Source: Leptolyngbya boryana PCC 6306 (GTDB lineage: Bacteria > Cyanobacteriota > Cyanobacteriia > Leptolyngbyales > Leptolyngbyaceae). Taken from it: 64,000 nucleotides of DNA. Under the pieces are notes generated by a model. That model saw only the letters and a program-made list of their open reading frames with translations, did no database searches and had not been told where the DNA came from. Location of the stretch: NCBI RefSeq assembly GCF_000353285.1, contig NZ_KB731324.1:2932577-2996576 (forward strand), given 5' to 3'. Within the stretch, counting starts at the first letter, position 1. Each line of letters opens with the position of its first letter. Below are positions 20,201 to 54,438 of this stretch, piece by piece. The translations under genes were made by a program, and so were the position numbers.

Positions 20201-21259
20201 TTAGAGATAGCGTTTGAGAATTTCGGCGGTTTGGTTCGCAGTAGTTTGCCAGCTAAAAGATTGAGCGCGATCGAGTCCTTTTTCTCTCAGTTGGGTTCGG
20301 AGGCTTGAATCTTGGACGATCGCATTCATCGCATCGAAAATTTCAGATTCACGGTAAGGATTGACTAAAATCGTCGCATCGCCTGCCACTTCAGGAATTG
20401 AGGACAGATTAGAAGTAATGACGGGAGTTCCACATGCCATTGCTTCGAGTACAGGTAAGCCGAAACCTTCCCACAGACTGGTAAAAACAAGCGCAGTGGC
20501 TTGATTGATCAATGCAGGTAATTCTGCATAGGAAACATAACTCAAGAATTTAATGCGATCGCGAATTCCCAAGCTTTCAGCCTGTTGTTGTAACTGAGGG
20601 GTAAATCTTGGATCGGGTGAGCCTGCGATCCAGAATTCATAATCTTTAGGAAGTCGAGAAAAAGCGCTGAGTGCTCGACCAATATTTTTATAAGGGTCAT
20701 GTCGCCCGACGTAGAGAAAGTAATTTTTAGTGGGTAAATCTAGAAATCTGAAGTGCTGATTGTCGTAAGCAAGTGGAATGACTGTGATTTTATTCGATGG
20801 GATTTTGTAGAACTCGATCGCATCATTTGCCGTCGATTCTGAATCGCTCAAAATATGCTGAGCTTGGGCAAGAACATGGGGAATATAGAATCGATAATAT
20901 TGAGTGAGTGGTGATGTGAAACGCGGAAATCGAAGCGGAATAAAATCGTGTAATGTCACGATATAGCGACATTTTGTAAAGATTGGAGCTTCAGGAATTG
21001 GAGAGAAAATGAGATTACTCTGAAGCTGATGATAGATTTTAGGTAATTCAAATTGCGTCCATTTCAATCGATTGAAATGCCCTTTTGTCCCTTGATCCGG
21101 TGTGAGTTGATCTGAAATCGGATAACACTGGTAAGGAGGGATATTTTGTCCAGATAATAAAACTGGATCAAGCGCGCTTAAACCAGGTAGTAAATTTTTT
21201 GCATAGACAGTGTGACCTGTCGGTTTTGAAGCTAAAAATGCAAGATTGACTAATATCAC
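20201..21259 (-). CDS. Glycosyltransferase family 4
   Basis: A 352-residue retaining GT-B enzyme from a GTG start. Acceptor domain motif VTLHDFIPLRFP; donor domain from about residue 180 (FLYVGRHDPYKNIGRALSAF); nucleotide-sugar site SLWEGFGLPVLEAMACGTPVITSN cut as WEGFGLPVLEAMACGTPVI. Last gene of the leftward polysaccharide cluster, 10 bp after the next GT4 gene. The specific sugar cannot be told; mannose/GDP-mannose-type GT4 is plausible because gmd is in the operon. Confidence 0.92.
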   Translation of the reverse strand: MILVNLAFLASKPTGHTVYAKNLLPGLSALDPVLLSGQNIPPYQCYPISDQLTPDQGTKGHFNRLKWTQFELPKIYHQLQSNLIFSPIPEAPIFTKCRYIVTLHDFIPLRFPRFTSPLTQYYRFYIPHVLAQAQHILSDSESTANDAIEFYKIPSNKITVIPLAYDNQHFRFLDLPTKNYFLYVGRHDPYKNIGRALSAFSRLPKDYEFWIAGSPDPRFTPQLQQQAESLGIRDRIKFLSYVSYAELPALINQATALVFTSLWEGFGLPVLEAMACGTPVITSNLSSIPEVAGDATILVNPYRESEIFDAMNAIVQDSSLRTQLREKGLDRAQSFSWQTTANQTAEILKRYL

Positions 21260-21269
21260 AGAACTAAGA

Positions 21270-22388
21270 TCACAGAATTGATCGATAAGCTTTCAATGTT
21301 TCTTGAGCCGTATTTTCCCAAGAATATAATTTAGCTTGTTCTTTGCCCTTTTGAATCAAATTCTCGCGTAAAGTGCGATCGCGAATGACGTTCAAAATCG
21401 CTTCTCCTAAATCTTCGATCGCATTTGGCTCAATCAATAGTGCCGCATCGCCCGCAATTTCTGGCAGAGATGAGACATTCGTTGTCACAACAGGTGCACC
21501 TAACGTCATTGCTTCTAATACAGGCATTCCGAACCCTTCGTAGTGCGAGGGATACACAAATACATCTGCATTTCGGTAAAACTGCATGACTTGAGCGTCG
21601 GGAAGATAATCGAGATGCTGAATTTCACTTTGATACGGCGATCGCGCAATTTGATCAAAAATAGGTTCGTATAACCAACCTTTTTGACCGATTAGAACTA
21701 ATTGATGCTCAATTTTATAATTTCGCTTTAGATATTCAAATGCAGAAATCAGCGATCGAATATTTTTTCTCGGTTCGATCGTACTGACAAATAAAATATA
21801 AGGTTTCGGAAACGAGAATTCAGGAATCGGCTGATCAACTTGATAACGACTGGCTAAATGAGTCACCCAAACTCGATCTGGATCAACCTTGAGATACTCA
21901 ACGATATCGCGTTTAGAACTATGCGAGATGGTCAAAATTAAATCTGTCCAACGCAGGCATTTTTTTAACCGTTCTGTATAAGCGCTAACCGTTGAATTCG
22001 TAAATTCAGGATACTTGATAAACGTCAAATCATAGATCGTAATGACTCGACGACTTTTCCGAGTTGGAAAAACAGTATAGTTCGTTCCATGCACAATATC
22101 AGCTTGCTGGAAACAGGCTTCTAAGCCATTAGAAAATAAGAAGGGAAAGTCAATAATTAAATTCGACAATCTTACCGGAAGTGGAAATAGATTAAGACGC
22201 GAATAAGCTCGTAAATAATCAGGAAATGCGAAATCTCCCTTGAGCCATTTCTTGAGTCCGGGCTGATAGATGAGTTCTAAATCTGGAGAATCTTGCGATC
22301 GCATCAGCCCTTGAATCAAGTTTGAGACATAAAACCCGATTCCACTCGGTTTCGGCATCCAAGGGGTGACATCGATCGCAATTTTCAT
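21270..22388 (-). CDS. Glycosyltransferase family 4
   Basis: A 372-residue GT-B enzyme: N-terminal IDVTPWMPKPSGIGFYVSNL, middle RVITIYDLTFIKYPEFT, donor-site FVYPSHYEGFGMPVLEAM and SSLPEIAGDAALLI. It looks like a mannosyltransferase-type GT4. The ATG overlaps the stop of gmd by 4 bp, so the two are translationally coupled. It resembles the neighbouring GT4 protein in the same region and the pair may be an old duplication. Confidence 0.93.
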   Translation of the reverse strand: MKIAIDVTPWMPKPSGIGFYVSNLIQGLMRSQDSPDLELIYQPGLKKWLKGDFAFPDYLRAYSRLNLFPLPVRLSNLIIDFPFLFSNGLEACFQQADIVHGTNYTVFPTRKSRRVITIYDLTFIKYPEFTNSTVSAYTERLKKCLRWTDLILTISHSSKRDIVEYLKVDPDRVWVTHLASRYQVDQPIPEFSFPKPYILFVSTIEPRKNIRSLISAFEYLKRNYKIEHQLVLIGQKGWLYEPIFDQIARSPYQSEIQHLDYLPDAQVMQFYRNADVFVYPSHYEGFGMPVLEAMTLGAPVVTTNVSSLPEIAGDAALLIEPNAIEDLGEAILNVIRDRTLRENLIQKGKEQAKLYSWENTAQETLKAYRSIL

Positions 22389-23350
22389 TGGGCTTCGCTC
22401 AATTCCTTCAAGTCGTGATCAACCATTAACTCGACCAACTGCTTAAACGGATATTGCGGCTCCCAATTTAGCTGTCTGCGGATTTTATCGATCGAGCCAA
22501 CGAGCTGCACGGCTTCATCCGGTCGATAAAAATTCGGATCGACTGAGACATACTCCTCCCAATTCAATCCCACACAGTCGAAAGCAGTCTGCACTAACTC
22601 TCGAACGGAGTGCGTTTCACCGCTGGCAATGATGTAATCATCGGGTTGCTCTTGTTGCAACATCATCCACATTGCCCGCACGGCATCTTTCGCATAACAC
22701 CAATCCCGCTTCGCGTCTAAGTTTCCAAGCTTCAACTCTTTGGCTAAACCCATTTTGATCAAGGCTGCCCCACGAGTGATCTTACGAAAGACGAACTCTG
22801 TGCCTCGACGCGGAGACTCATGCGTGTAGGTCACCCCACAACAGCTATAGAGTCCATACTGCTGGCGATAATTGATCGTCATCCAATGCGCGTAAGCTTT
22901 TGCGACTCCGTAAGGATTTCGAGGTCGAAAGGCGGTTCGTTCGGTTTGAGGCGACTCATCGGGTTGTCCGAACACTTCACTACTAGATGCTTGGTAAAAC
23001 CTGGCATCTGATTTACAGCGACGAATCGATTCGAGTAACCGTGAAACGCCTAGAGCAGTATATTCTGCGGTCAAAGCGGGCTGTGTCCAAGACAGCGGCA
23101 CATAACTTTGAGATGCCAGATTATAAATTTCGTCGGGTTGGGCGTAGGAAACGGCATCCATTAACGAACATTGATCCAGTAGGTCACCGGATAAAATCTC
23201 GACGGTTCCTGATAAATGGCTAATGCGATCGGCATTGCCCGAACTCGATCGACGAACTAACCCAAAGACTTGATAGCCCTGCTCTAGCAAAAGTTCTGCG
23301 AGATACGATCCGTCTTGTCCGGTCAGTCCGGTAATGAGTGCTTTTTTCAC
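22385..23350 (-). CDS. gmd: GDP-mannose 4,6-dehydratase
   Basis: Short-chain-dehydrogenase-type enzyme converting GDP-mannose to GDP-4-keto-6-deoxymannose, precursor of GDP-fucose, rhamnose or related sugars. In 321 residues from a GTG start: NADP fold GLTGQDGSYLAELL (8-21), ASSSEVFGQ (catalytic Ser/Glu), YGVAK (catalytic Tyr and Lys), HESPRRGTEFVFRKITRG and LGNLDAKRDWCYAKD. A little shorter than the E. coli enzyme but typical in cyanobacterial clusters. No GDP-fucose synthase or reductase follows, so the final sugar is unresolved. Confidence 0.93.
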   Translation of the reverse strand: MKKALITGLTGQDGSYLAELLLEQGYQVFGLVRRSSSGNADRISHLSGTVEILSGDLLDQCSLMDAVSYAQPDEIYNLASQSYVPLSWTQPALTAEYTALGVSRLLESIRRCKSDARFYQASSSEVFGQPDESPQTERTAFRPRNPYGVAKAYAHWMTINYRQQYGLYSCCGVTYTHESPRRGTEFVFRKITRGAALIKMGLAKELKLGNLDAKRDWCYAKDAVRAMWMMLQQEQPDDYIIASGETHSVRELVQTAFDCVGLNWEEYVSVDPNFYRPDEAVQLVGSIDKIRRQLNWEPQYPFKQLVELMVDHDLKELSEAQ

Positions 23351-23383: not shown

Positions 23384-25762
23384 TTACCTGAATGTTGCAG
23401 AAGCAGCCATAAAATTGTCGGCAATGACTCGCCAATCATACTGCTGCTGCACTCGCGTTCTGGCGGCTTCGATTCGGGTCAGTTGAATCGTTGAAGACTC
23501 TGATCGCACTTGCGCGATCGCGCTTGCAAACTGGTCAACTTCTGCGACGATGCAGTGTTTGCCATGTTCCACGCCCAATCCTCGGATTCCGGTTGGAGTC
23601 GAAATGACTGGGATGCCTGCCGCAAAGTACTCTAACATCTTTAGGTTTGTCCCTGAACCAAAGGTGACTGGATTGAGTGCGACATCGGCAATCTCTAAAA
23701 CGATCGCTTTTGTCTCTTCCTCTACTTCTCCTAAAAATCCCACATTCTCCGGGCGTTTTTTATCTTGAAATGCCCAACCTACACTTCCAACAATTAGAAA
23801 ATTGATATCAGGCAGTGATGGAGCAAGATTCAAAATGGTTTCAACGGCTTTGAGGTTTGGATCGTGCCAACTTCCCAAGAAAAAAGCAGTAAAGTTATTA
23901 GAAATTCCTAACTTTTCTTTCATCGATCGCCGTTTTTCTTGAGAAATATATGCGATCGCTTCAGTGTCTACTCCGTTTGGAACCTCAATCATTTTATTGA
24001 GATCAATACCGTAAATTTGATTGAGCAAATTCGCATCATTTTGCGAACAAGTCATGATCAATTGACTCGCGTTACAGCATTCTAATTCGACTTTTTTAAT
24101 CGATTCTAAGAGCTTCCGACTGACCGCATTATCCGGGAGGATTTTCGCTTTCAAATCGACTTCAACGTCTTGGGCTTCATACCAAATCGGTTTATCCGTA
24201 ATCGATCGAATGGCGGGATAGAGGTAAGGATGACAAGCAATGACGAAATCTGAAGATGCGATCGACGTTTTTAATGCTTCAAGATATTCCGGAGTCAAAT
24301 GAATCAAATCCGGCATAACGATATCGGTAATTGGAACTCTAGTTTCCTTTTCGATTTCTTGTTCTTTTTGCTGATGTTCTGCCGATTTAGGGATACGAAT
24401 TTCGTAAACATGTTCGGCAATCTCACCTGCAAACGGAACCTGATCGAATCCGGTGACTGAAACAAATTCGATATCGAAATATTTGGCAAGATGTTTGTAT
24501 AAATGGAAAACGCGGCTTTGTCCGCCTCCGCGTGGAGGAAAGACTGAAAATGTAACCGCGATCGTAATTTTTTGGCGAGATTTACTCATTCCATTGCTCA
24601 TCGTCTTTAAGGGAGGTTCGCTTAACAAACGAGTGACCGTATTTTCCCAAGTAATTGTCTCAACCAGTTTTCGACCTGTGAGTCCCATTTGCTTGGCTTC
24701 TGTACGATGCTGATAAAAATAATCTATTCGTTCAGCAAGTGCAGCAGGTTCGGGTAAAACAGAAAATCCGGTTTCTCCATTAATGACAAACTCGTTCGGA
24801 CCACCCGCATCGATTGTGGTTAAAACAGGTTTTCCACTCATCATGGCTTCAATCACGACTAAGCCATAATCTTCGTCATAAGGAAGATACGGAACTGCGA
24901 TCGCATTGGCATACAGCCCAATTACATCTTCGTCATTGACGAATCCAAGAAATTCGATGCGATCGTCGTCTCCAGCTAACTCTTTTAACCGTTTTTCATC
25001 CGGTCCAGTTCCTGCAATTTTAAGCTGAACTTTTGACTTTACAAAGCGCATGGCTTCGACGAGTAGGCGAATTCTTTTTGCACTGTCTAAACGGCTAATT
25101 GTGAAAAAATAATCGCTACTTCCCTGCTCAAATCTTCTCAGGCTTGAAGGTGGATAAATTACATCGATCGCACTGCCACGTGGAAAATAATTCTTTCGAT
25201 TTGCGACATTATGAGAGATAGCAGTGTATTTCTTAATGGCTTTGGGATCTAAAGCAATTCCATCAAAATAGTGAATCAATTCTCGAACAAAAGCGCCAGG
25301 AAAATGGGCGGCTTCTTCGGGTAATTTCCCACTAGATTCTAACTGTTTAAGCTGTAAAAAAATCTCTGGTAAATCGCCACGTTTTCCTTGTTGAATTCGT
25401 TTTTGAAGACGAGAAAGGGTTGGATGATTTGTCGTAAATCGCTCCGGTAAACCTGTCAAATGATAGGCATCATATAAGCCTCGCAATCGGTGTAGCATAT
25501 AGCAAACATGATTCGGATGCTTGACCATCCAAGCCGGATATTTGCCGGAAATGACCAAATCAAAATGGCGCAAATCTAGCTCAGAAAATTGCTGATAACT
25601 ATCAATCAACTCTGAAAAGTTCTGCTCTGGGCTGGGCAGTTTGATCAACTCAGCCTGATGCGATGTATTTTGATTGATTTCTTCTTGTAATCCCCACCAG
25701 AGTTTCTCGGCTCCACCAATACAAAATGGAACAGGACTGGGTGCAACGATCGCGATATGCAT
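23384..25762 (-). CDS. Fused double GT4 glycosyltransferase
   Basis: A 792-residue protein with two complete GT-B units. Unit 1 (about 1-385): IAIVAPSPVPFCIGGAEKLWWGL, FFTISRLDSAKRIRLLVEAM, VPYLPYDEDYGLVVIEAM. A linker (PPLKTMSNGMSKSRQK, about 386-401) leads to unit 2 (about 402-792): VTFSVFPPRGGGQSRVFHLYK, FFLGSWHDPNLKAVETIL, and the donor site LNPVTFGSGTNLKMLEYFAAG. Each unit has its own nucleotide-sugar site, so it could add two successive sugars. It begins 11 bp after the methyltransferase gene. Confidence 0.9.
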   Translation of the reverse strand: MHIAIVAPSPVPFCIGGAEKLWWGLQEEINQNTSHQAELIKLPSPEQNFSELIDSYQQFSELDLRHFDLVISGKYPAWMVKHPNHVCYMLHRLRGLYDAYHLTGLPERFTTNHPTLSRLQKRIQQGKRGDLPEIFLQLKQLESSGKLPEEAAHFPGAFVRELIHYFDGIALDPKAIKKYTAISHNVANRKNYFPRGSAIDVIYPPSSLRRFEQGSSDYFFTISRLDSAKRIRLLVEAMRFVKSKVQLKIAGTGPDEKRLKELAGDDDRIEFLGFVNDEDVIGLYANAIAVPYLPYDEDYGLVVIEAMMSGKPVLTTIDAGGPNEFVINGETGFSVLPEPAALAERIDYFYQHRTEAKQMGLTGRKLVETITWENTVTRLLSEPPLKTMSNGMSKSRQKITIAVTFSVFPPRGGGQSRVFHLYKHLAKYFDIEFVSVTGFDQVPFAGEIAEHVYEIRIPKSAEHQQKEQEIEKETRVPITDIVMPDLIHLTPEYLEALKTSIASSDFVIACHPYLYPAIRSITDKPIWYEAQDVEVDLKAKILPDNAVSRKLLESIKKVELECCNASQLIMTCSQNDANLLNQIYGIDLNKMIEVPNGVDTEAIAYISQEKRRSMKEKLGISNNFTAFFLGSWHDPNLKAVETILNLAPSLPDINFLIVGSVGWAFQDKKRPENVGFLGEVEEETKAIVLEIADVALNPVTFGSGTNLKMLEYFAAGIPVISTPTGIRGLGVEHGKHCIVAEVDQFASAIAQVRSESSTIQLTRIEAARTRVQQQYDWRVIADNFMAASATFR

Positions 25763-25773
25763 AAAATGAAAAT

Positions 25774-26703
25774 TTAGAGACGAGTCGCAGTAAACGCAAA
25801 CCGAGCATAGATCGAAGAATCGATCTCTTGTGCATTGCTCAAGTAGAAGAACTGGAACTTAAGTTTGTCTTGAGTCGGGCGAATGATTCTCTGCATAAAA
25901 GACTGAGGGCTATAAAAACGCCCGTGCCGATTTCCCCATCCTTCAGCGCAGTAAATGGTTGCAGTCTGATCAAACGGGACACCCGCAGGAACGCTAACCG
26001 TTGGATCAGTTTGAGTTGCTTCTTGATTAAAGACATAGAATGGCACAACGCAAACTGTTCCGCCTGGTTTTAAAACCCTCGCCAGTTCTTGAAACAGACC
26101 TGTATCTGCATCTTCTTCAAAATGCTCTAAAGAACAAGTGAGTGCTGCTTTTGTGATGAATCCATCGGGAATCGGCATATTACAAGCATTGCCGCCAATC
26201 TGATCGCCGTTAATTCCGTCAGGATACATAATGTCTTGACTGTAAGTTTTTGCTCCTGATAAACGCCGAAAAATTTCTGGGACAGGAGAATGTTCGCTGG
26301 CTAAATCGACAAAAACATCTTCTGAATTTAAACCTAATAATGAATAGCAAATATAGTGTTCTAATGTTTTCTCAGGCTGATTTCCTCGATAGTATTCAGA
26401 ATAGCGTTTTGAGTATTCTGCGCTCTTGCAATACTCCTGATAAAGGCTAGGCTCGATTGAGAATTCATTAAATTCAATTCCAACTTGTTTGCCGAGTTCG
26501 ATAATATTGGAGACGACTTCTGGGCGAGTATTCTCGATCGCATGATCAACCACAGAGCGTCCGCTGCGCCGAAGCTGTTCTACCCCTGTAGCAAAATCGA
26601 ACTGAGCGACGTCTGGACGATAGATGTAGGGAGTTGGGCTTGTTTTGGTCGGTTTTCGATTGAGATTCTGAATCGAGTTCAATAAGCCTTTCAGAGAAAT
26701 CAT
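25774..26703 (-). CDS. SAM-dependent methyltransferase
   Basis: About 309 residues from the ATG at 26703, which has GGAG at good spacing; an ATG at 26724 is in frame. The Rossmann core is somewhat divergent: VFVDLASEHSPVPEIFRRL for motif I, ALTCSLEHFEEDADTGLFQEL and ARVLKPGGTVCVVPFYV for motifs II-III, typical of Methyltransf_11. Located among glycosyltransferases it probably methylates a sugar, lipid carrier or glycan end; this is inferred from context. Confidence 0.83.
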   Translation of the reverse strand: MISLKGLLNSIQNLNRKPTKTSPTPYIYRPDVAQFDFATGVEQLRRSGRSVVDHAIENTRPEVVSNIIELGKQVGIEFNEFSIEPSLYQEYCKSAEYSKRYSEYYRGNQPEKTLEHYICYSLLGLNSEDVFVDLASEHSPVPEIFRRLSGAKTYSQDIMYPDGINGDQIGGNACNMPIPDGFITKAALTCSLEHFEEDADTGLFQELARVLKPGGTVCVVPFYVFNQEATQTDPTVSVPAGVPFDQTATIYCAEGWGNRHGRFYSPQSFMQRIIRPTQDKLKFQFFYLSNAQEIDSSIYARFAFTATRL

Positions 26704-26727
26704 TACATTTACTCCACACAACAAGTT

Positions 26728-27771
26728 TCAACATCCTAATATCTTTTGCACAACATTAGCCCATGAAATGTCGAGTGCATTGTAGCGATCGTATCCTGCT
26801 GATCCCATTTCTTTCGCGATCGCTTGCTGTTCATAGAGATGATCAATCTTTTCGGCGATCTCCGTTGGATCAGCTTCTGTAATCCATCCGGTCTGCCCAT
26901 TTACAACAAATTCAACGGGTTCACCCGAATCTTTGCAGGTAATCACAGGCTTGCGAGAGAGCATTGCTTCTAAGGTGACGTAACCGTAATCCTCGTTATA
27001 AGGCGCAAAAAAAACACCTAAACAATGTGCGTAATAACTGAGTTTCTCATTGTCGCTGAGCCGACCGAGCAGGCGGACTTTCTGATGGAGTCCAAATTGA
27101 TCAATCAAACCTTGCAGATAAGGGTACTGACCGCCTTCGCCACCCATTAAGGCAACCACAGGCGATCGCACAAATCGCATGGCTTGAATCAGCAAATCCT
27201 GCCGTTTCAGAGTTTCTAATCGGCTCGGAAAGAAAATATAAGGTTCGGCAGGCGCGGTGTAAAACTGTTCTGCAAATTGGGGCGGATGATAGAGCGGGAT
27301 AGAAGCGATTTGATTGAATTTTTGCAATCGCTTGGACACGGTTTTCGCGATCGTAAAAACGCCTCGAAATGTACTCAGGGCTTTCGTATCTTGTTCTGTA
27401 ATTTCTTGTTTTAACTGTTTGCCTTCTGCACTGCGAGAAAATTCTGCTGTAAATTCAGTGTCCCATAGGTCATAAACACTGCGATGTTGATGTAAAAGCC
27501 AGCCCACTTTATTCGGATGCTGCAAATAGAATGCCGGAAATTTGAGACAGATCACACGATCGCATTGATAGCCATTCAAATTCTCAAAATTCTCAGATGC
27601 CCAAAGTTTCATACTTCGCTGAATTTCTGAGACAGGCGAAAATCGAAATGGCATCGCAATGATTTCAACCGAGTGTCCGGCTGCTTGCAGTGCATTTGCT
27701 AATCCGTCGGCTAAAATCTCCGCTCCGCCTCGAATAAAGGGAACTTGAACAGTGGCGATCGCAATTCTCAT
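26728..27771 (-). CDS. Glycosyltransferase family 4
   Basis: A 347-residue GT-B enzyme closely resembling unit 1 of the double GT4 gene: VQVPFIRGGAEILADGLANAL, YIFFPSRLETLKRQDLLIQAM and FFAPYNEDYGYVTLEAMLSRKPVI cut as YNEDYGYVTLEAMLSRKPVI. The same NEDYG/DEDYG donor-site variant occurs in both, suggesting duplication. Its ATG overlaps the stop of the preceding coiled-coil gene by 4 bp. Confidence 0.92.
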   Translation of the reverse strand: MRIAIATVQVPFIRGGAEILADGLANALQAAGHSVEIIAMPFRFSPVSEIQRSMKLWASENFENLNGYQCDRVICLKFPAFYLQHPNKVGWLLHQHRSVYDLWDTEFTAEFSRSAEGKQLKQEITEQDTKALSTFRGVFTIAKTVSKRLQKFNQIASIPLYHPPQFAEQFYTAPAEPYIFFPSRLETLKRQDLLIQAMRFVRSPVVALMGGEGGQYPYLQGLIDQFGLHQKVRLLGRLSDNEKLSYYAHCLGVFFAPYNEDYGYVTLEAMLSRKPVITCKDSGEPVEFVVNGQTGWITEADPTEIAEKIDHLYEQQAIAKEMGSAGYDRYNALDISWANVVQKILGC

Positions 27772-28181
27772 TCTTTTTCCTCGATCGCATCTAATCGAGC
27801 TTGCAAATCGCTAATTTCTGCCTGCAACTCTGAAACTTTTTTCACTAGGCTTTGATTCAGTAATAAAGTTTCTCGCAAAGCTTGATTGAGAGAGAAATTA
27901 ACCGCTCGCTGTTCCTTGAAGAGAAAACTGTAAGTTTTCAAAGCGGCTTTCCCAAATCCTCTACCCAAGCTCCAGGGGAATCGTTTTAATTTGGCAGGTA
28001 AGTCGGTTCTAATTTGAGATTTTGCGCTGGCAGCATTCAAAAGTGCTTCGATATTGCTCGATCGAATTCGATTTGCCGCATCTATATTTGCAGGAGGTTG
28101 ATATTGAGAAACGGTTTGTCTCTGGGCTGCTTCTTGCCGAATTTTATCGATCAGAGTGTCAATATTTACGGGGTCACTCAT
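27768..28181 (-). CDS. Small coiled-coil protein of the polysaccharide cluster
   Basis: A 137-residue protein with AAGGAG before its ATG. It has an N-terminal acidic/basic segment (NIDTLIDKIRQEAAQRQ), a middle basic part with KLKRFPWSLGRGFGKAALKT, and a C-terminal heptad region (SLVKKVSELQAEISDLQARLD). No catalytic motif. It lies between a GT8-like and a GT4 gene with which it is translationally coupled; a scaffold or chain-length role is an inference from context. Confidence 0.8.
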   Translation of the reverse strand: MSDPVNIDTLIDKIRQEAAQRQTVSQYQPPANIDAANRIRSSNIEALLNAASAKSQIRTDLPAKLKRFPWSLGRGFGKAALKTYSFLFKEQRAVNFSLNQALRETLLLNQSLVKKVSELQAEISDLQARLDAIEEKE

Positions 28182-28188
28182 GTTAGAT

Positions 28189-29541
28189 TCACTCCTTTTT
28201 TTGCTCTAATAACTTCACTTCAGGTTGACCCAATCGCTGTTTGATTTTCCACCAAACATTTCTCGCTTTCCAAAAAATGCTGTTCTCCATTTCTGAGATT
28301 GTTTGATGCGATCGCGCAATTTCTGCGTCTGCTTGCTGGCGAAACTGTGTAAATTCATCAACAGTTTGTTCTAGCGAAGATTGTGTCTGCTGAAGCGAAA
28401 GTTGTGTTTGCTGAAGTGTTAAATGAGTTTGATGATTCTGCTGCTGAAGTTCAACGAGTTGCTGATAAACTCCATAGAGTTCTTCTCGCAAAAAATGAGT
28501 GGAATCAAGCGTGTACCTTTTTGCCTGAAAGTATTCAGAATTCTCGAACGGTGCTGAGATTGCAATCCCTTGTTTTAGCTCATCATAGTAGCCGCGTCGA
28601 ACTGCTTGGGTGATCGGAGTTCCGTCATTGAATTTGCTAAAAGTATAAGGAAACTGCCGCGTTTTCTCATAGCTATTCTTCAATAATTTGTCTCGATAAA
28701 TATCTGCTAACTCTGCCCAAGGCGAAGTAATTTCTTCGGGATAAAGAGACGTATTTTTAGAAACAAAATGAGGACGATCAATATCCCATCCACTAAAGTG
28801 TAGAAACAGGAGAGGTTGACCGTTCACAAGTACATTTCCTTGCATGTCTCGCTCAAATGTCTTTTCATAGAAATTCCAATGACCAATATTGGTTCCTGGA
28901 TGCTTTAAGAATTTGAAATCCGAGAAATAAAGCACGGCAAGATTCAGCCATAACTGGTCTGCGGCAAGTCCTCTCGGATCTCCGATCGCACAATCTAAAA
29001 AACAGTAATGAATTAATCTGTCCTTCCACCATTGGATAAATTGTCGGGTTTGCTCGGTTCTTCGCAATCCCATAAATCCACCGTTATTGATGCCATGAAC
29101 TAAGAAGTTAATCTCATGGTCAGCCTGCTCTAATGGGACAGGTCGGCTACAGTGTGGACTAAAGATTAATGATGTTTCAGAAAGTTCTTGAAAGATTGGC
29201 TCTAGAGAATCACAAATTAAAATATCGCAATCGATAAACAGCCAGCTTTCAGCCGTTGTATGTTCCAGAATGTATTCATGCAACAATCCCCGTAGCGCAC
29301 AGCAAAACTCTAAGGGAGTGTAATAGAAACTCATCTGAGCGATCGCATCTTGCTCGGGCAGATCTTCTAAGTAAATTAGCTCAAAAGGCTCCGTTTCTGG
29401 TTGAAAATAATCCTCAACCCGATCGGCAAGCAAAACATATAATTTTGCTTCTGGATTATGCTCGGTTAACGTTTCAGCTAAGGTTCGAGCATATGCCAAA
29501 TAGCTCTTCGTGACGACAGTGCAAACAATTCTTTCAGGCAT
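28189..29541 (-). CDS. GT8-like glycosyltransferase with C-terminal coiled coil
   Basis: About 450 residues from the ATG at 29541 (a TTG three codons earlier is the open-frame start). The N-terminal GT-A domain shows IVCTVVTKSYLAYARTLAETL and the metal-binding DCDI (DxD) within ESWLFIDCDILICDSL, then HGINNGGFMGLRR. After about residue 345 comes a Gln-rich coiled coil (QQTQLSLQQTQSSLEQT) and a tail NSIFWKARNVWWKIKQRLG. The same type of tail ends the next gene, a methyltransferase. Confidence 0.87.
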   Translation of the reverse strand: MPERIVCTVVTKSYLAYARTLAETLTEHNPEAKLYVLLADRVEDYFQPETEPFELIYLEDLPEQDAIAQMSFYYTPLEFCCALRGLLHEYILEHTTAESWLFIDCDILICDSLEPIFQELSETSLIFSPHCSRPVPLEQADHEINFLVHGINNGGFMGLRRTEQTRQFIQWWKDRLIHYCFLDCAIGDPRGLAADQLWLNLAVLYFSDFKFLKHPGTNIGHWNFYEKTFERDMQGNVLVNGQPLLFLHFSGWDIDRPHFVSKNTSLYPEEITSPWAELADIYRDKLLKNSYEKTRQFPYTFSKFNDGTPITQAVRRGYYDELKQGIAISAPFENSEYFQAKRYTLDSTHFLREELYGVYQQLVELQQQNHQTHLTLQQTQLSLQQTQSSLEQTVDEFTQFRQQADAEIARSHQTISEMENSIFWKARNVWWKIKQRLGQPEVKLLEQKKE

Positions 29542-29557
29542 ATTCTTCAACGCTCAA

Positions 29558-30556
29558 CTATTCTTGAGTTGGCAATCCCAATTTTCGCTTGAGTTGGAAC
29601 CAAGTTGCTCGTAACTTCCAGAATTTACTACTTTCCATTGCTTGAATTCGAGTCTGTGCAGCGGCGGCAAGTTGATTGACACGATCGAGTTCAAGTCGGG
29701 TTTGCTGAAGCTCTTGATTGAGCTGGTTAACCTGGTCTGATTGCGGTAACGTTTCAGTTAGAAGTCGCATCAAAAACTGAAATGCACTCTGCGAAATACT
29801 GGTTTGATTTTGCAACTGTGATTCATCTACATTCACGATCGCTAAATATCCATCAGCATTCTCGATCGCAGAAAGATTTTCTAAATACTCACGCTCAAAG
29901 AAATCCTTCGGCAGAGGGTTCTGATAACTCTCAAATCTCACGCCTTTTAATGCAGGTGAAATCGGCTTAACAATATGACTCGAAACGCTGTAGTGCTGCC
30001 CTAAAAATACCGCTTCACCAAACGTGCTCAACACCAATTCTCGAAACTCAGGAAATCGGAACTTATGCAAATGAAACTCACTGATCCAAGGCGCAACGCG
30101 ATAATCATTTGGACAAGACAAAAACAGTTGTCCATCTGGTTTCAGTAAGCGTCTGAGTTCAACTACAAACTTTCGCGGATTCGGCAAATGCTCGATCGTT
30201 TCAAAGGAAACAATCACATCGAACGAAGCATCTTCTAATTGCCGCACATAATGAGCATCGGACTGAATAAACGTTGCATTCGGATGCGCGTGAAACTTAG
30301 ATGCAAAATTCACTGCCGACTGATCCACATCGACCCCAACAACTTCTAAAGCGCCTTGCTGAGCGATAAACTGTGTCCCATACCCCGTTCCACAAGAGAT
30401 ATCTAACACCCGTTTTCCAACGACAAAGGGTGCAACATACGCATAGCGAATCATATGATCCACATTTGCAAGCGAAGTATCTGTTCCTGTCTCGTACACT
30501 GGCATATGCCGTTCGCTAGTCGGTGTGTAATCGGCAACTGGGTCAGATGAGATCAT
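29558..30556 (-). CDS. SAM-dependent methyltransferase with C-terminal coiled coil
   Basis: About 332 residues from the ATG at 30556; a TTG at 30571 is in frame. Class I fold: VGKRVLDISCGTGYGTQFIA (motif I), VEVVGVDVDQ-type motif II (EVVGVDVDQSAVNFA), FDVIVSFETIEHLPNPRKFV and LRRLLKPDGQLFLSCPN, i.e. Methyltransf_11 or _23. The last 60 residues form a coiled coil ending ESSKFWKLRATWFQLKRKLG, similar to the end of the GT8-like protein. First gene of the polysaccharide operon on the minus strand. Confidence 0.9.
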   Translation of the reverse strand: MISSDPVADYTPTSERHMPVYETGTDTSLANVDHMIRYAYVAPFVVGKRVLDISCGTGYGTQFIAQQGALEVVGVDVDQSAVNFASKFHAHPNATFIQSDAHYVRQLEDASFDVIVSFETIEHLPNPRKFVVELRRLLKPDGQLFLSCPNDYRVAPWISEFHLHKFRFPEFRELVLSTFGEAVFLGQHYSVSSHIVKPISPALKGVRFESYQNPLPKDFFEREYLENLSAIENADGYLAIVNVDESQLQNQTSISQSAFQFLMRLLTETLPQSDQVNQLNQELQQTRLELDRVNQLAAAAQTRIQAMESSKFWKLRATWFQLKRKLGLPTQE

Positions 30557-30709
30557 GGGCTTCGCTGTCAAAAGAATCGAAGATAGTATACCAAACTGAT
30601 TGAATCTCCAACGGGAAAGTGGTTCCCGCGAATTCTCGATCGTCAGATAGATTTCAGCAAACCGCGCAAATCACTATGATGCTTAGCGTTGTTCGCGCTA
30701 AAACGGTAC

Positions 30710-51575: not shown

Positions 51576-52053
51576 ATTATTCGTTTATAACTGCTATGCT
51601 CATCTGGACACTTCAGCACTTCCCGATGCTTCACTCACTTAGTCCGAAAATCCTTGGGTCAAATATGCAGGAGCTTTTTGAACAATCTTATCCTGTGAAA
51701 GTTATGGAGCAGATGAATGCTGACTGGCAAGGCAAGGATGATCGCGATTTGTTTCAGATCCTAAATCTCTAGATCGAGGATTAGAGTTGATTATAAAGCT
51801 TGATATCTATGCAGTTCCACAAATTTAGGGCTTCGTAAGATTGAGTAGTCTCTCTTGAGTGATCGCAACTTCTTCACCCGTGAAGAACTTAAGCTGTTTT
51901 GTTCTTGGTTGGCCGATTCATAAATTATAGGAAATTCCTTGAGATCTTGACAGTTAGGCTTATGTGCCTGTGGCTTATTAATTTAGCCGAATCGGTTCTC
52001 CCATCTCAGTTTTTTCTTCGTTAAACTGATGTGTGAATTGTCACGCAAGCGCT
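51576..52053. other. Gene-poor region before the TIR gene
   Basis: 478 bp. It contains one short frame (51596-51772, 58 codons, MLIWTLQHFPMLHSLSPKIL onwards) with no recognised relatives and no clear RBS. Nothing else was recognised. It lies inside a stretch free of CGATCG sites. Confidence 0.4.
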
Positions 52054-54438
52054 ATGACTGACAAGCCAATTAAAGTTTTCATTTCCTACTCACATCGAGA
52101 TGAGGAGCTTATACATCAACTACTGAAGCACCTGAGCAATTTACACCGTCAAGGTCTAGTCTCGGAGTGGCACGCTCGTATGATTACGCCAGGAAGTGAG
52201 TGGAGTCGAGAGATTGATGCTTCATTGAGTTCAGCCGACATTATTCTGCTAATGGTGAGTTCAGATTTCTTAGCATCTGATTATTGCTGGGGCATTGAGA
52301 TAGAGAAAGCGTTACAGCGGCATGAATCAGGAGAGGCATGTGTGATCCCTGTGATACTGCGTCATGCGAATTGGCAAGGTGCACCGTTTGCACAGCTTCA
52401 GGCATTACCGAAGAATGCAAGACCGATTACGAGTTGGTCAAATCAAGATGATGCATTCTTTGATGTAATACAAGGAATTCGCATAACAATCAAAACGCTT
52501 CTACAAGCCAGAAAATCTCAAAGCATGTCTGATTCTCAAAGGATGTTTGCACGAGATTCTGCTGATACGCATCTTTTAATTGACCAAGCAGATGGTACTC
52601 CCTTAGCAGAAAACTCTAGAAGACTTTTAGAGACGAGATTGACTAAGTTACATGCAGAGTGGAGTACAGAAATCGAAAAAGTAGGAGCACTACGTCAATC
52701 TCGAGCTATTGAGACGAATGTACTTATGAAGTTTCAATTAGAAAAAAGAATTCAAGCGGAACAAAAAAAGTTAGAACGCTTGGAGAGCCAGTTATCTGAA
52801 ATTGAACAAATTCTCTCTTCGTCAGAAGAGAAGAGTGTTACGACAGAGCAATATCTTGAGATTCCAAGACAAATGGAACAACAATTTCAGCAAGAAACTG
52901 AAGAGAAGGGCAAACCTTCGAACTCTGAAATACTACCAACTATTACTCCAAACCCTACCGTGTACCGATTAGGTGAAGTTTTCAAGGCTTCGGGTGTCCC
53001 CACGGTTACATTTGTTGAGCCTGAACGATTTTCTGAAATCAAACTTGTTCTAACGCAGTCTAGTGCTGGAATTGTTCTTGAAGGGGCATCAGGTATAGGA
53101 AAAACAACGGCGTTACGAAAGGCTCTCGACCAAGTTGATTTCTCATCAGAACCCAAATTTTTAAGCGCCCGAAATCCTGACCATGTTAACCAAATTAAAG
53201 GAATAAGAAGATGGCATCAGGGGCTTGTTGTAATTGATGATTTACACCGCCTTGATGCAAATACATGCTTGTTAATTTCAGATTATTTGAAGTATTTAGC
53301 TGACAATGAATTTATTGATAGACAACTGGTAGTTATAGGTATTCCTGAAACGGCGAAGCGGCTAATTAACTTTTCATTCGATCTTGCCTTGCGCGTCAAA
53401 AGATTTCCATTAGGCAGGGTGGGAGATAAAACAATCGAAAACATGATTAAAAAAGGTGAAGATGCCCTAAATATTGTATTTTCTCAAAAGCTAGAAATCA
53501 TTGCAAAAGCTAATGGAAGTCTTAATGTAGCCCAACTACTCTGTTATTATATAGCTCTGTTAGCGGGAATTGAAACAACGCAGTCAACCACTCAGATCAT
53601 CACTTCTGATCTGGATGAATCCCTTTCCCGCGTTATGGAGGACATAGAACCTAAATTTAATGATCCAGTTCGTCAGTTTGTATTGTTGGGAGGACATAAT
53701 GACTCCACTTCCGTAACAATTCTAGAAGAGTTAGCAGCTAATGATAATGGGGTTCTATCACTGCATCAGTTAAGGGATTCTCGTCTTAGTCTAGAGAAGG
53801 CGATTGGCAATTTCTTAGCTTTGAACTATCTACCAAATCTATACAAAAAATCTCCTCATATCAGCAAATTTATATGTTTTAATCAGGACGATATGACTCT
53901 TGTAATTGATGATCCTCAGCTAACTTTCTATCTCCGTCAACTTTCTACAGATGGACTAATACAAATGGCTAATAAGATTCGATCTTCAGCTCGTGATAAA
54001 GTCTTTGTAAGTTATAGCCATAGTGATGAAGCTAAACTAGACTTTCTTGGTCGTCTTCTCACTCATTTAAAGCCGCTAGAAAGAGAGGGACTTATTGATA
54101 TATGGAGTGACAGAAAAATCAAGGCTGGCTCATATTGGAAACAGGAGATAGAGCAGGCTTTAGGCTCAGCTAAAATCGCGTTACTTCTTGTTAGTGCGAA
54201 CTTTCTTGCTTCAGACTTCATTGTAAGTAATGAGTTGCCTCCACTGCTGGCTGCTGCTAGTGATGAAGGCACAGTTATAATTCCTGTTATTCTTAGCCCT
54301 TGTAGATTACCAAAAAATATTTCTGAAATTCAATCTGCTAATTCCCCTTCAAAGGCTCTAACATCAATGAATTACAATGAGCAAGAGGAAGTATTTGCAA
54401 CACTTGTAGAAATCATCGAGGGATACTTGGGACTATAG
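52054..54438 (+). CDS. TIR-ATPase-TIR (double-TIR STAND-like) protein
   Basis: 794 residues from the ATG at 52054 (a GTG at 52033 is in frame). N-terminal TIR about 5-150: KVFISYSHRDEELIHQLLKH, then FLASDYCWGIEIEKAL with the NADase Glu82. Then a coiled coil (about 200-285) and a P-loop ATPase: Walker A GASGIGKTT (344-352), Walker B LVVIDDLH (about 391-398), and a helical region to about 600. A second TIR occupies about 650-794: KVFVSYSHSDEAKLDFLGRL and FLASDFIVSNEL with Glu727. Most like bacterial antiphage TIR-STAND proteins; two TIRs in one chain is unusual. AT-rich, without CGATCG. Confidence 0.9.
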   Translation: MTDKPIKVFISYSHRDEELIHQLLKHLSNLHRQGLVSEWHARMITPGSEWSREIDASLSSADIILLMVSSDFLASDYCWGIEIEKALQRHESGEACVIPVILRHANWQGAPFAQLQALPKNARPITSWSNQDDAFFDVIQGIRITIKTLLQARKSQSMSDSQRMFARDSADTHLLIDQADGTPLAENSRRLLETRLTKLHAEWSTEIEKVGALRQSRAIETNVLMKFQLEKRIQAEQKKLERLESQLSEIEQILSSSEEKSVTTEQYLEIPRQMEQQFQQETEEKGKPSNSEILPTITPNPTVYRLGEVFKASGVPTVTFVEPERFSEIKLVLTQSSAGIVLEGASGIGKTTALRKALDQVDFSSEPKFLSARNPDHVNQIKGIRRWHQGLVVIDDLHRLDANTCLLISDYLKYLADNEFIDRQLVVIGIPETAKRLINFSFDLALRVKRFPLGRVGDKTIENMIKKGEDALNIVFSQKLEIIAKANGSLNVAQLLCYYIALLAGIETTQSTTQIITSDLDESLSRVMEDIEPKFNDPVRQFVLLGGHNDSTSVTILEELAANDNGVLSLHQLRDSRLSLEKAIGNFLALNYLPNLYKKSPHISKFICFNQDDMTLVIDDPQLTFYLRQLSTDGLIQMANKIRSSARDKVFVSYSHSDEAKLDFLGRLLTHLKPLEREGLIDIWSDRKIKAGSYWKQEIEQALGSAKIALLLVSANFLASDFIVSNELPPLLAAASDEGTVIIPVILSPCRLPKNISEIQSANSPSKALTSMNYNEQEEVFATLVEIIEGYLGL

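Follow-up and report, generated by a model that had tools for sequence, protein, structure and literature searches.

A conserved FWK tail behind a coiled coil on unrelated glycan enzymes of Leptolyngbya boryana and other cyanobacteria, and its possible role as a portable anchor

The window analysed here, a stretch of 64,000 nucleotides from Leptolyngbya boryana PCC 6306, carries a glycan operon whose genes and features are listed in Table 1. The methyltransferase MT1 comprises 337 aa when read from the TTG at 30571 (longest ORF) and 332 aa when read from the in-frame ATG at 30556. Its structural model matched methyltransferases in Foldseek, and no kinase family was found among its family matches. 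The neighbouring transferase is named GT8-like only, because no recognised GT8 sequence family matched: there was no Pfam family at E ≤ 1e-3, and the match to NCBIfam NF045582 (E = 9.6e-4) reached 18.8 bits with a cut-off of 250. The motif D107-x-D109 (DxD) is present in all four aligned sequences, and the best Foldseek matches of its low-confidence model (mean pLDDT 57.6) were to glycogenin (E = 2e-4). By analogy with WbdA, the double GT4 protein GT4GT4 is a candidate polymerase.

Table 1. Genes and protein features of the glycan operon in the window (positions are those of the window)
Feature	Position	Strand	Basis
MT1, class I SAM methyltransferase with C-terminal coil and FWK tail	29558..30571	-	ORF; Methyltransf_11 E = 2.8e-23; AlphaFold2 mean pLDDT 72.4
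MT1 coiled-coil helix, residues 250-313	29633..29824	-	AlphaFold2 secondary structure (pLDDT 54-60 in first half)
MT1 FWK tail, residues 315-332, SKFWKLRATWFQLKRKLG	29576..29629	-	DNA pattern, genome searches, profile, AlphaFold2
GT8-like glycosyltransferase with C-terminal coil and FWK tail, 453 aa	28189..29550	-	ORF; Foldseek glycogenin
GT8-like protein coiled-coil helix, residues 351-422	28285..28500	-	AlphaFold2, low confidence
GT8-like protein FWK tail, residues 424-441, SIFWKARNVWWKIKQRLG	28228..28281	-	DNA pattern, genome searches, profile, AlphaFold2
137-aa coiled-coil protein	27768..28181	-	ORF; middle part resembles N-terminus of a methyltransferase elsewhere
GT4 glycosyltransferase	26728..27771	-	Glycos_transf_1; synteny
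Second methyltransferase, without FWK tail	25774..26724	-	Methyltransf_11 E = 5.9e-6
Double GT4 glycosyltransferase (GT4GT4)	23384..25762	-	two GT4 stretches; putative polymerase
GDP-mannose 4,6-dehydratase	22385..23350	-	GDP_Man_Dehyd E = 6.6e-120
Two more GT4 glycosyltransferases, operon end	20201..22388	-	Glycos_transf_1; synteny

Both MT1 and the GT8-like enzyme end in a common tail, S-x-F-W-K-x-R-x-x-W, that follows a coiled coil, as the first-pass annotation had read from the sequence. In a six-frame search of the whole L. boryana genome each tail retrieved the other (E = 7.3e-5, 43%, and E = 3.5e-5, 46%), and both found a third tail (E = 5.3e-9 and 7.2e-4), which belongs to a TylF-type methyltransferase at C1:3607448. 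The FWK-R-W DNA pattern occurs at four places in 7.26 Mb, three of which are the tails of these enzymes. The fourth, in a frame of ∼20 codons, is attributed to chance, as is a further match (E = 2.1) in a 434-aa ORF of a different kind, unlike the tailed enzymes. Chance similarity among the tails themselves is ruled out by the reciprocal genome matches, the profile counts and the residue-conservation control described below. A phage origin was set aside, since a search of a phage collection gave no match.

A profile search of 63 cyanobacterial stretches (2154 ORFs) identified 114 tails. Ninety-nine of them lie no more than 20 residues from the C-terminus, one of these in a frame truncated at a contig end (126 of 160 in a second set of 76 named loci, partly overlapping the first), and 14 are followed by 264 to 805 residues. 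A contig scan for the tail matched 350 stretches and confirmed 317; the best 80 of these 317 gave 76 distinct loci, all of them cyanobacterial by title. Plasmids searched with the FWK query returned two records, one from Nostoc (E = 1e-3) and one from Streptomyces at chance level (E = 10). The host enzymes fall into 28 greedy clusters. Thirty tailed proteins, at least one from each cluster, were scanned and gave methyltransferase, TylF, FkbM, sulfotransferase, GT2, GT4, radical-SAM and Capsule_synth families, with some matches below the curated cut-off and five proteins matching none. The proposal of a common module on unrelated catalytic domains was borne out for several methyltransferase families, sulfotransferases, GT2, GT4 and GT8-like transferases and a radical-SAM protein. 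Where a family could be named, the hosts were nearly always glycan-type enzymes, the radical-SAM protein being unclear in this respect. The tail was neither missing from homologous clusters nor scattered at random among unrelated proteins. Relatives of MT1 collected by the catalytic domain only (E ≤ 1e-20) carried it in 11 of 12 cases, the twelfth being cut by a contig end, and among ten close GT8 relatives an FWK-type tail is present in nine, in one case on a separate frame. A literature search by motif strings and topics in titles and abstract starts found no description of the FWK tail and no paper on SWR-type tail strings, but most subscription papers fall outside its coverage, so that absence from the literature is unproven.

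In the AlphaFold2 model, MT1 ends in a helix of 64 residues that breaks off at Ser-Ser and is followed by a second, separate helix of 15 residues; confidence in this single-chain prediction is higher for the tail (pLDDT 81-86) than for the first half of the coil. The same layout of coil, break and end helix was obtained with low confidence for the GT8-like protein. The coil is indeed rich in Gln (18% at positions -30 to -4 of 232 distinct tails). The description of the tail as amphipathic and basic held in part: it is strongly basic, with a mean net charge of 5.6 (223 tails), but its hydrophobic moment (0.30) is close to that of shuffled tails (0.28), and a plain amphipathic membrane helix is therefore not supported. 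FtsA-type membrane-targeting helices are likewise short, basic, Trp-containing and C-terminal.

Among the 232 distinct tails, W3 is kept in 232, R6 in 230, S0 in 228, F2 in 226 and W9 in 223, and R6 is never replaced by Lys. Since 230-232 of the 232 tails remained detectable when altered at the conserved places, this near-invariance is not a search effect. It bears on the idea that the tail has no specific function and owes its spread to domain shuffling and gene fusion. A fusion of the order MT-coil-tail-GT2-GT2 does exist (L073), and the tail of one TylF relative (L050) has decayed, but the residues of the tail stay nearly invariant while the coil ahead of it drifts (0.4-1.5 bits per column at -30 to -7, up to 5.9 in the tail), and we find a neutral relic hardly credible. 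The strict residue identity, above all R6 never being Lys, suits a defined pocket better than a bilayer.

The likeness between tails of non-homologous enzymes is the same within a locus (0.536) as between loci (0.531, p = 0.90), which speaks against locus-specific docking codes. The tails thus carry no locus signature, and this points to a partner common to all of them. Such a code would be unnecessary if every tail fitted every other, so that the tails might simply bundle together through heterotypic coiled coils with an aromatic cap and hold a mixed pathway complex without membrane contact. The hydrophobic positions 2, 5, 9, 12 and 16 of the tail keep heptad spacing, shifted by one relative to the coil, and 27 of 88 tail clusters hold two to six tails within steps of 15 kb. 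However, the other 61 clusters contain a single tail, and coils of one locus differ in length only marginally less than shuffled ones (p = 0.048, a rough proxy); we regard pure protein docking as unlikely. Equal coil length within a locus, being marginal with this crude proxy, was not used further.

The first-pass annotation had named the 137-residue coiled-coil protein as a possible docking partner of both enzymes. In the window, as in five relatives (L068, L094, L088, L045, L100), its gene comes right after that of the GT8-like enzyme, but full-length homologues were found in just six of the 63 stretches (tails are present in 62) and in one of 76 other loci. The protein is too rare for a tail that is spread far more widely. 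The relatives L044 and L047 share the operon but have a protein of 497-498 aa at this position. The one in L044, where it was scanned, is a GT4 enzyme; the resemblance to the 137-residue protein covers the first ∼30 residues only (E = 0.016 in L044, by eye in L047). An IDVDELM-type N-terminal peptide of the proteins resembling the 137-residue protein and of the GT4 proteins matched three times at E < 0.001 in 97 genomes, each time at these loci. The HMM of the 137-residue protein also matched L157:8535-9989 (E = 2.7e-19), where Methyltransf_23 is found. We regard docking of both enzymes to this protein as highly improbable.

In five relatives the operon begins with Wzm-Wzt and a third tailed enzyme, in the order Wzm-Wzt-TylF-...-GT8 with both TylF and GT8 tailed, and MT1 adjoins the tailed TylF and Wzm-Wzt in L044, L047 and L045. 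In L. boryana itself the Wzm-Wzt-TylF part lies 645 kb from the operon part in the window, with the TylF gene directly after a CBM-bearing Wzt (Wzt_C E = 1.1e-23 at C1:3608309). GT4GT4 is present in the window's operon part and in L068 and L094. A Wzt_C gene lies within 10 kb of 29 of the 88 tail clusters (within 2.5 kb of 18), compared with 12 of 143 tail-less FkbM genes drawn from the 150 best matches listed (Fisher p = 4.6e-6, clusters being compared with genes). The tail might accordingly bind Wzt/Wzm and pass the finished chain to the exporter, a role to which the position of the TylF gene would also be suited. Yet 59 of the 88 clusters have no Wzt_C inside 10 kb, 11 of 59 tail-bearing genomes have no Wzt_C match at all, and 32 of 61 stretches, several of them cut by contig ends, have no Wzt-type ATPase, while the tails show no sign of their locus. 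Wzt as the sole partner was lowered for this reason, and we rate binding to the exporter as very unlikely. Since so many clusters and genomes are without Wzt_C, WbdD-like termination cannot be the role of the tail everywhere.

WbdD-type chain terminators are marked by a trimeric coil, a C-terminal amphipathic helix and a methyl or methylphosphate cap. Like MT1, WbdD (E. coli O8/O9a, Klebsiella O5/O3), a chain terminator with a coiled-coil ruler, combines an N-terminal methyltransferase, a coiled coil and a non-catalytic C-terminal part, which begins with a similar S-x-x-W-[KR]. In the cyanobacterial relatives as in the O8-type locus, the gene stands beside Wzm/Wzt and a large GT4-type protein. 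For WbdD, two papers describe the coil, a membrane-associated C-terminus and recruitment of the polymerase (PMC11231755; PMC5082667). Proteobacterial glycan enzymes have a similar tail at the same place, including the methyltransferase in the WbdD position of an O8-type locus; this O8-type protein represents WbdD in the C-terminal comparison. Profiles of the FWK and WbdD-type tails matched at E = 2.1e-5 with the end of the coil included, but from the hinge onward only at a non-significant E = 0.033, which 5 of 40 permuted profiles also reached. From these profiles the two tails are likely, though not securely, kin. The link to the WbdD/WbdA idea that had been suggested for the locus found support in the order Wzm-Wzt-tailed enzyme of the relatives (with GT4GT4 next in two), in the O8-type tail and, weakly, in the GT8 relative G029, whose WbdD-like C-terminus shows a weak likeness to the O8-type protein (E = 0.001, coil included). 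The differences are clear: here the tail is present on several different enzymes of one operon, the hinge Ser is 23 residues (MT1) or 30 residues (GT8-like) from the end compared with 118 in the O8-type protein, and the tail reads F-W-K-L-R-x-x-W in place of S-W-R-I-T-x-P-L-R. K. pneumoniae O7 ORF6 and O12 WbbB are single polypeptides with a terminator, a coil and polymerase GTs, and ORF6 has the MT-coil-GT2-GT2 layout of L073 (PMC11231755), where the FWK tail sits between coil and GT2. In contrast to these proteins, no kinase family was matched in L073.

Alongside the observed presence, position, conservation, host range and operon context of the tail, we propose by analogy with WbdD that the FWK coil and tail form a portable C-terminal anchor by which several enzymes at once would have their catalytic heads fixed at the membrane or at a polymerase; we consider this moderately probable. 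The tailed enzymes would be cytoplasmic and would build, decorate or finish lipid-linked cyanobacterial surface glycans. Behind the catalytic head, the Gln-rich coil would serve oligomerisation and spacing and thereby multiply the tail, and a Ser-Ser hinge would lead to the short basic helix with its two near-invariant Trp. The tail would dock to one partner common to all these cells, most likely the inner-membrane surface, the site of polymerase action and of polyprenyl-linked chain growth, and the heads would be kept at a set distance as in WbdD. In L. boryana the TylF-type methyltransferase, MT1 and the GT8-like transferase would have one type of anchor, may use one site at the growing chain end jointly or in competition, and would act before export by Wzm/Wzt.

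A more specific version, which we judge unlikely, is that the FWK helix reads the common carrier and binds the diphosphate/headgroup region of polyprenyl-linked glycans. The model for this is the ruler helix of Campylobacter jejuni PglH, a basic and aromatic element by which this glycosyltransferase is attached to the membrane; it also contacts the lipid-linked glycan at its pyrophosphate (PMC5792488). The ruler helix belongs to the catalytic domain, whereas the FWK tail follows a coil as a C-terminal tag. The invariant Arg6 and a basic residue 13 would be set between the aromatic stripes F2/W9 and W3/F10, and the coil length of each enzyme would set its reach along the chain. If this were true, a single tag would suffice for any enzyme of any pathway, which would account for the locus-independent tails, the glycan-enzyme hosts and the occurrence with and without Wzt.

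The genetics of cyanobacterial surface glycans is poorly understood. As a marker, the tail alone would be enough to find assembly enzymes, even those that match no recognised family, and it ties together detached parts of a pathway, as with the distant exporter here. By this analogy, whole sets of enzymes may work on the WbdD principle of a rod-mounted catalytic head at the membrane, and their tails differ between cyanobacteria and proteobacteria.

The methyltransferase MT1 and the GT8-like transferase of the window share a tag near their C-termini, S-x-F-W-K-x-R-x-x-W behind a Gln-rich coiled coil (FWK tail), which reads SKFWKLRATWFQLKRKLG in MT1 and SIFWKARNVWWKIKQRLG in the GT8-like enzyme. 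This common tail, proposed in the first-pass annotation, is real: in a six-frame search of the own genome the MT1 and GT8-like tails matched each other (E=7.3e-5 and 3.5e-5, respectively), and both queries found a third copy, located at the C-terminus of a methyltransferase of the TylF type (E=3.9e-35 for TylF). The latter is encoded directly after a Wzm/Wzt-like exporter (contig C1, 3.607 Mb) with a Wzt_C domain (E=1.1e-23).

A 33-residue tail query gave 136 matches in 59 of 97 related genomes (E<=0.01). An iterated profile, seeded with the three own tails, was applied to 2154 ORFs of 63 stretches, namely 61 of up to 20 kb fetched around the best, not all, tail matches, stretch L013 and the window. 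It detected 114 tails on 113 ORFs in 62 of the stretches. Most tails (99 of 114) stop no more than 20 residues before the C-terminus, with one of these in a frame truncated by a contig end, while 14 are followed by 264 to 805 residues and one, 72 residues from the end, is the first of two tandem tails (L072). Fusion proteins have the order methyltransferase, coil, tail, GT2, GT2 (L073) or sulfotransferase, tail, GT4 (L067). A pattern scan of an 84,980-species collection matched 350 stretches, 317 of which were confirmed; the best 80 of these represent 76 distinct loci, all cyanobacterial by title. This second set, which shares some genomes with the first, contains 153 tailed ORFs; 126 of their 160 tails have no more than 20 residues behind them.

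With the tail and the preceding 60 residues masked, the tailed proteins of the 63 stretches fell into 28 greedy clusters. Pfam analysis of 30 tailed proteins, at least one per cluster, yielded Methyltransf_11/23, TylF, FkbM (Methyltransf_21), Methyltransf_24, Sulfotransfer_3, Glycos_transf_1, Glycos_transf_2, Radical_SAM and Capsule_synth, with some scores short of the curated threshold. No family was matched by five of the 30, and one had only a coiled-coil-type match. Judged from these assignments, the named families, radical-SAM apart, fit glycan assembly or decoration. Since tail-less homologues exist for TylF (four distant relatives stop after the catalytic domain), GT8 (short frames in most remote relatives) and FkbM (no tail within 2.5 kb for 143 of the 150 matches listed), the tail is a module.

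Numbered from the hinge Ser as 0, the 232 distinct tails retain W3 in 232, R6 in 230, S0 in 228, F2 in 226, W9 in 223, K1 in 221 and K13 in 192 cases, with Arg at position 13 in 33 more; in the coil ahead only heptad L/I/M positions are kept. After a single-position change in each tail, a repeated search still recovered 230 to 232 of the 232, so the search did not enforce the near-invariance. A search by catalytic domain only gives the same picture: MT1 relatives (E<=1e-20) occur in 12 genomes, 11 tailed and one truncated by a contig end. Among 10 close GT8 relatives found in this way, eight have an FWK-type tail as closed ORFs, the ninth (genome G016) has it on a separate overlapping frame, and the tenth (G029, L189) has a different C-terminus. 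One TylF relative (L050) carries a decayed tail, NKFSLQAAWLKLKKRIGL, and those in L069 and L100 are longer proteins without a tail.

Since relatives have a single operon, the nine-gene run of the window corresponds to its rear, and the exporter plus the third tailed enzyme to its front. The glycan operon of the own genome is split in two. A similar arrangement appears in G004, where the tailed TylF gene follows Wzm-Wzt on one contig (L093) and MT1 (90% identical, truncated by the contig end) lies on a different one, next to the gene that also flanks MT1 in the window.

Coordinates and gene orders (t, tailed gene; MT2, second methyltransferase; GT4GT4, double GT4; GMD, GDP-mannose 4,6-dehydratase)
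Feature	Location	Description
Window run	window 30571 down to 20201 (-)	MT1, GT8-like, cc137, GT4, MT2, GT4GT4, GMD, GT4, GT4 (family matches)
MT1	window 29558-30571 (-)	tailed methyltransferase
GT8-like	window 28189-29550 (-)	tailed transferase
cc137	window 27768-28181 (-)	137-aa coiled-coil protein
Detached front part	G000 (own genome):C1 about 3607439-3609999 (L012)	Wzm-Wzt and TylF(t); 645 kb from window run
Relative	L068	Wzm-Wzt-TylF(t)-another tailed methyltransferase(t)-GT8(t)-cc137-GT4-MT2-GT4GT4-GMD-GT4-GT4
Relative	L094	as L068, minus second tailed methyltransferase, plus one extra gene
Relatives	L044 and L047	Wzm-Wzt-TylF(t)-MT1(t)-GT8(t)-two other genes-GMD-GT4-GT4
Relative	L045	Wzm-Wzt-TylF(t)-another tailed gene(t)-MT1(t)-GT8(t)-cc137-like-...-GMD-GT4-GT4
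Tandem tails	L072:13224-14531 (+)	radical-SAM protein, two FWK tails at C-terminus
GT8 relative of G016	L100:9300-11345 (-)	289-aa catalytic frame and overlapping 248-aa coil/tail frame; frameshift or real split
Decayed tail	L050:7501-8331 (+)	TylF relative, W3 and R6 lost, beside MT1 relative with intact tail
TIR protein	window 52033-54438 (+)	801 aa, TIR domain at both ends, putative NTPase region in between (AAA_22, under its cut-off)

Elsewhere in the window, the TIR protein has a ThsB-type PADLOC match (E=6.2e-76) and is a possible anti-phage defence protein.

AlphaFold2 predicted for MT1 (20 sequences, mean pLDDT 72.4) two helices, 250-313 (pLDDT 54-60 in the first half) and 316-330 (pLDDT 81-86), with a break at Ser314-Ser315 between them. 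The unreliable GT8-like model (4 sequences, mean pLDDT 57.6) has helices 351-422 and 425-439 separated by a break; glycogenins were its best Foldseek matches (E=2e-4), which, for a low-confidence model, is consistent with the GT8-like label. The tail had been described as amphipathic and basic. It is basic, with an average net charge of +5.6 and an average hydrophobicity of 0.52, but its hydrophobic moment (0.30) about equals that of shuffled tails (0.28), which does not support an amphipathic character. The HELIQUEST threshold for lipid binding, D>1.34, is reached by 211 of 223 tail pieces versus 1 of 223 coil pieces, owing to the charge. Drawn as a helical wheel, the tail would place R6 and the basic position 13 between the aromatic stripes F2/W9 and W3/F10.

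A partner encoded at the locus should leave a local tail signature, while one common to all cells should leave none. Tails of non-homologous enzymes were as alike within stretches (0.536, 140 pairs) as between them (0.531, 23,242 pairs; p=0.90). The suggestion that cc137 is the docking partner is not supported: full-length homologues occur in 6 of the 63 stretches and in 1 of the 76 loci, and the latter set adds one partial match, in fusion with a methyltransferase. cc137 begins with VNIDTLIDKIRQEAAQR, which is similar to the IDVDELM-type N-termini seen in cc137-like proteins and in a 497-498-aa protein of relatives; its central portion is similar to the N-terminal end of the L157 methyltransferase. 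Tails favour exporter loci, since 29 of 88 tail clusters have a Wzt_C gene at 10 kb or less, versus 12 of 143 tail-less FkbM genes from the 150 matches listed (Fisher p=4.6e-6, clusters against genes). The other 59 clusters have none within 10 kb; a Wzt-type ATPase was not found in 32 of the 61 fetched stretches, some of them short, nor a Wzt_C match in 11 of 59 tailed genomes. As partner we would favour first a membrane surface or the polymerase; the boldest proposal would be the polyprenyl-diphosphate carrier.

A second tail form, S-x-S-W-[KR]-x-T-x-P-L-R (PLR), occurs on a cyanobacterial neighbour gene (L162), with the variant S-x-S-M-R-I-T-A-P-L-R on the GT8 relative of G029. A PLR-form query matched one of the 97 cyanobacterial genomes and 40 plasmid records, most of the latter with weak scores (E=0.01 to 9). 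The annotations of 29 records name a methyltransferase, FkbM, sulfotransferase, glycosyltransferase, RgpF-like or pyruvyl transferase; five are hypothetical proteins, one is a Hint-domain protein, and five have no feature. In these records proteobacterial glycan enzymes of many families carry the PLR tail, parallel to the cyanobacterial FWK tail. The motif was present by pattern in 15 of 16 plasmid stretches fetched (a looser form in L219), in six of the 15 with the protein end within 11 residues. One PLR-tailed protein, from Enterobacter roggenkampii, is a methyltransferase whose gene is flanked by O8-family wzm/wzt on one side and by that of a 1213-aa GT4-type protein on the other. We read it as an O8-type WbdD because of this WbdD position and because O8 WbdD is, in an excerpt of PMC3482155, a simple methyltransferase. 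The G029 protein aligns with the Enterobacter protein in its C-terminal part, coil included (E=0.001, 25% over 181), and both finish in [LM]T-x-x-A-x-S-[VI]-Y-x-ELK.

FWK and PLR tails occupy the same place and have the same S-x-x-W-[KR]-hydrophobic start. Their profiles align with E=2.1e-5 (0 of 40 permuted profiles as high) only if the last coil residues are included; from position -3 E is 0.0023 (2 of 40 reach the score) and from the hinge onward 0.033 (5 of 40). Common descent is likely, though not secured by these alignments, and the FWK tail probably has a sister in the first part of the WbdD C-terminal region. The WbdA/WbdD comparison of the first-pass annotation pointed in the right direction. 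For WbdD itself, a coil, a C-terminus associated with the membrane and recruitment of the polymerase are described (excerpts of PMC11231755 and PMC5082667). Klebsiella O7 ORF6 combines methyltransferase, kinase, coil, GT2 and GT2 in one chain, and its authors noted cyanobacterial orthologues of the N-terminal part (excerpt of PMC11231755).

As far as our searches show, one tag on many enzymes, with several per pathway, is new, as are near-invariant tag residues together with no local code. The FWK tail is a widespread feature of cyanobacterial glycan enzymes, for which it would act as an anchor.
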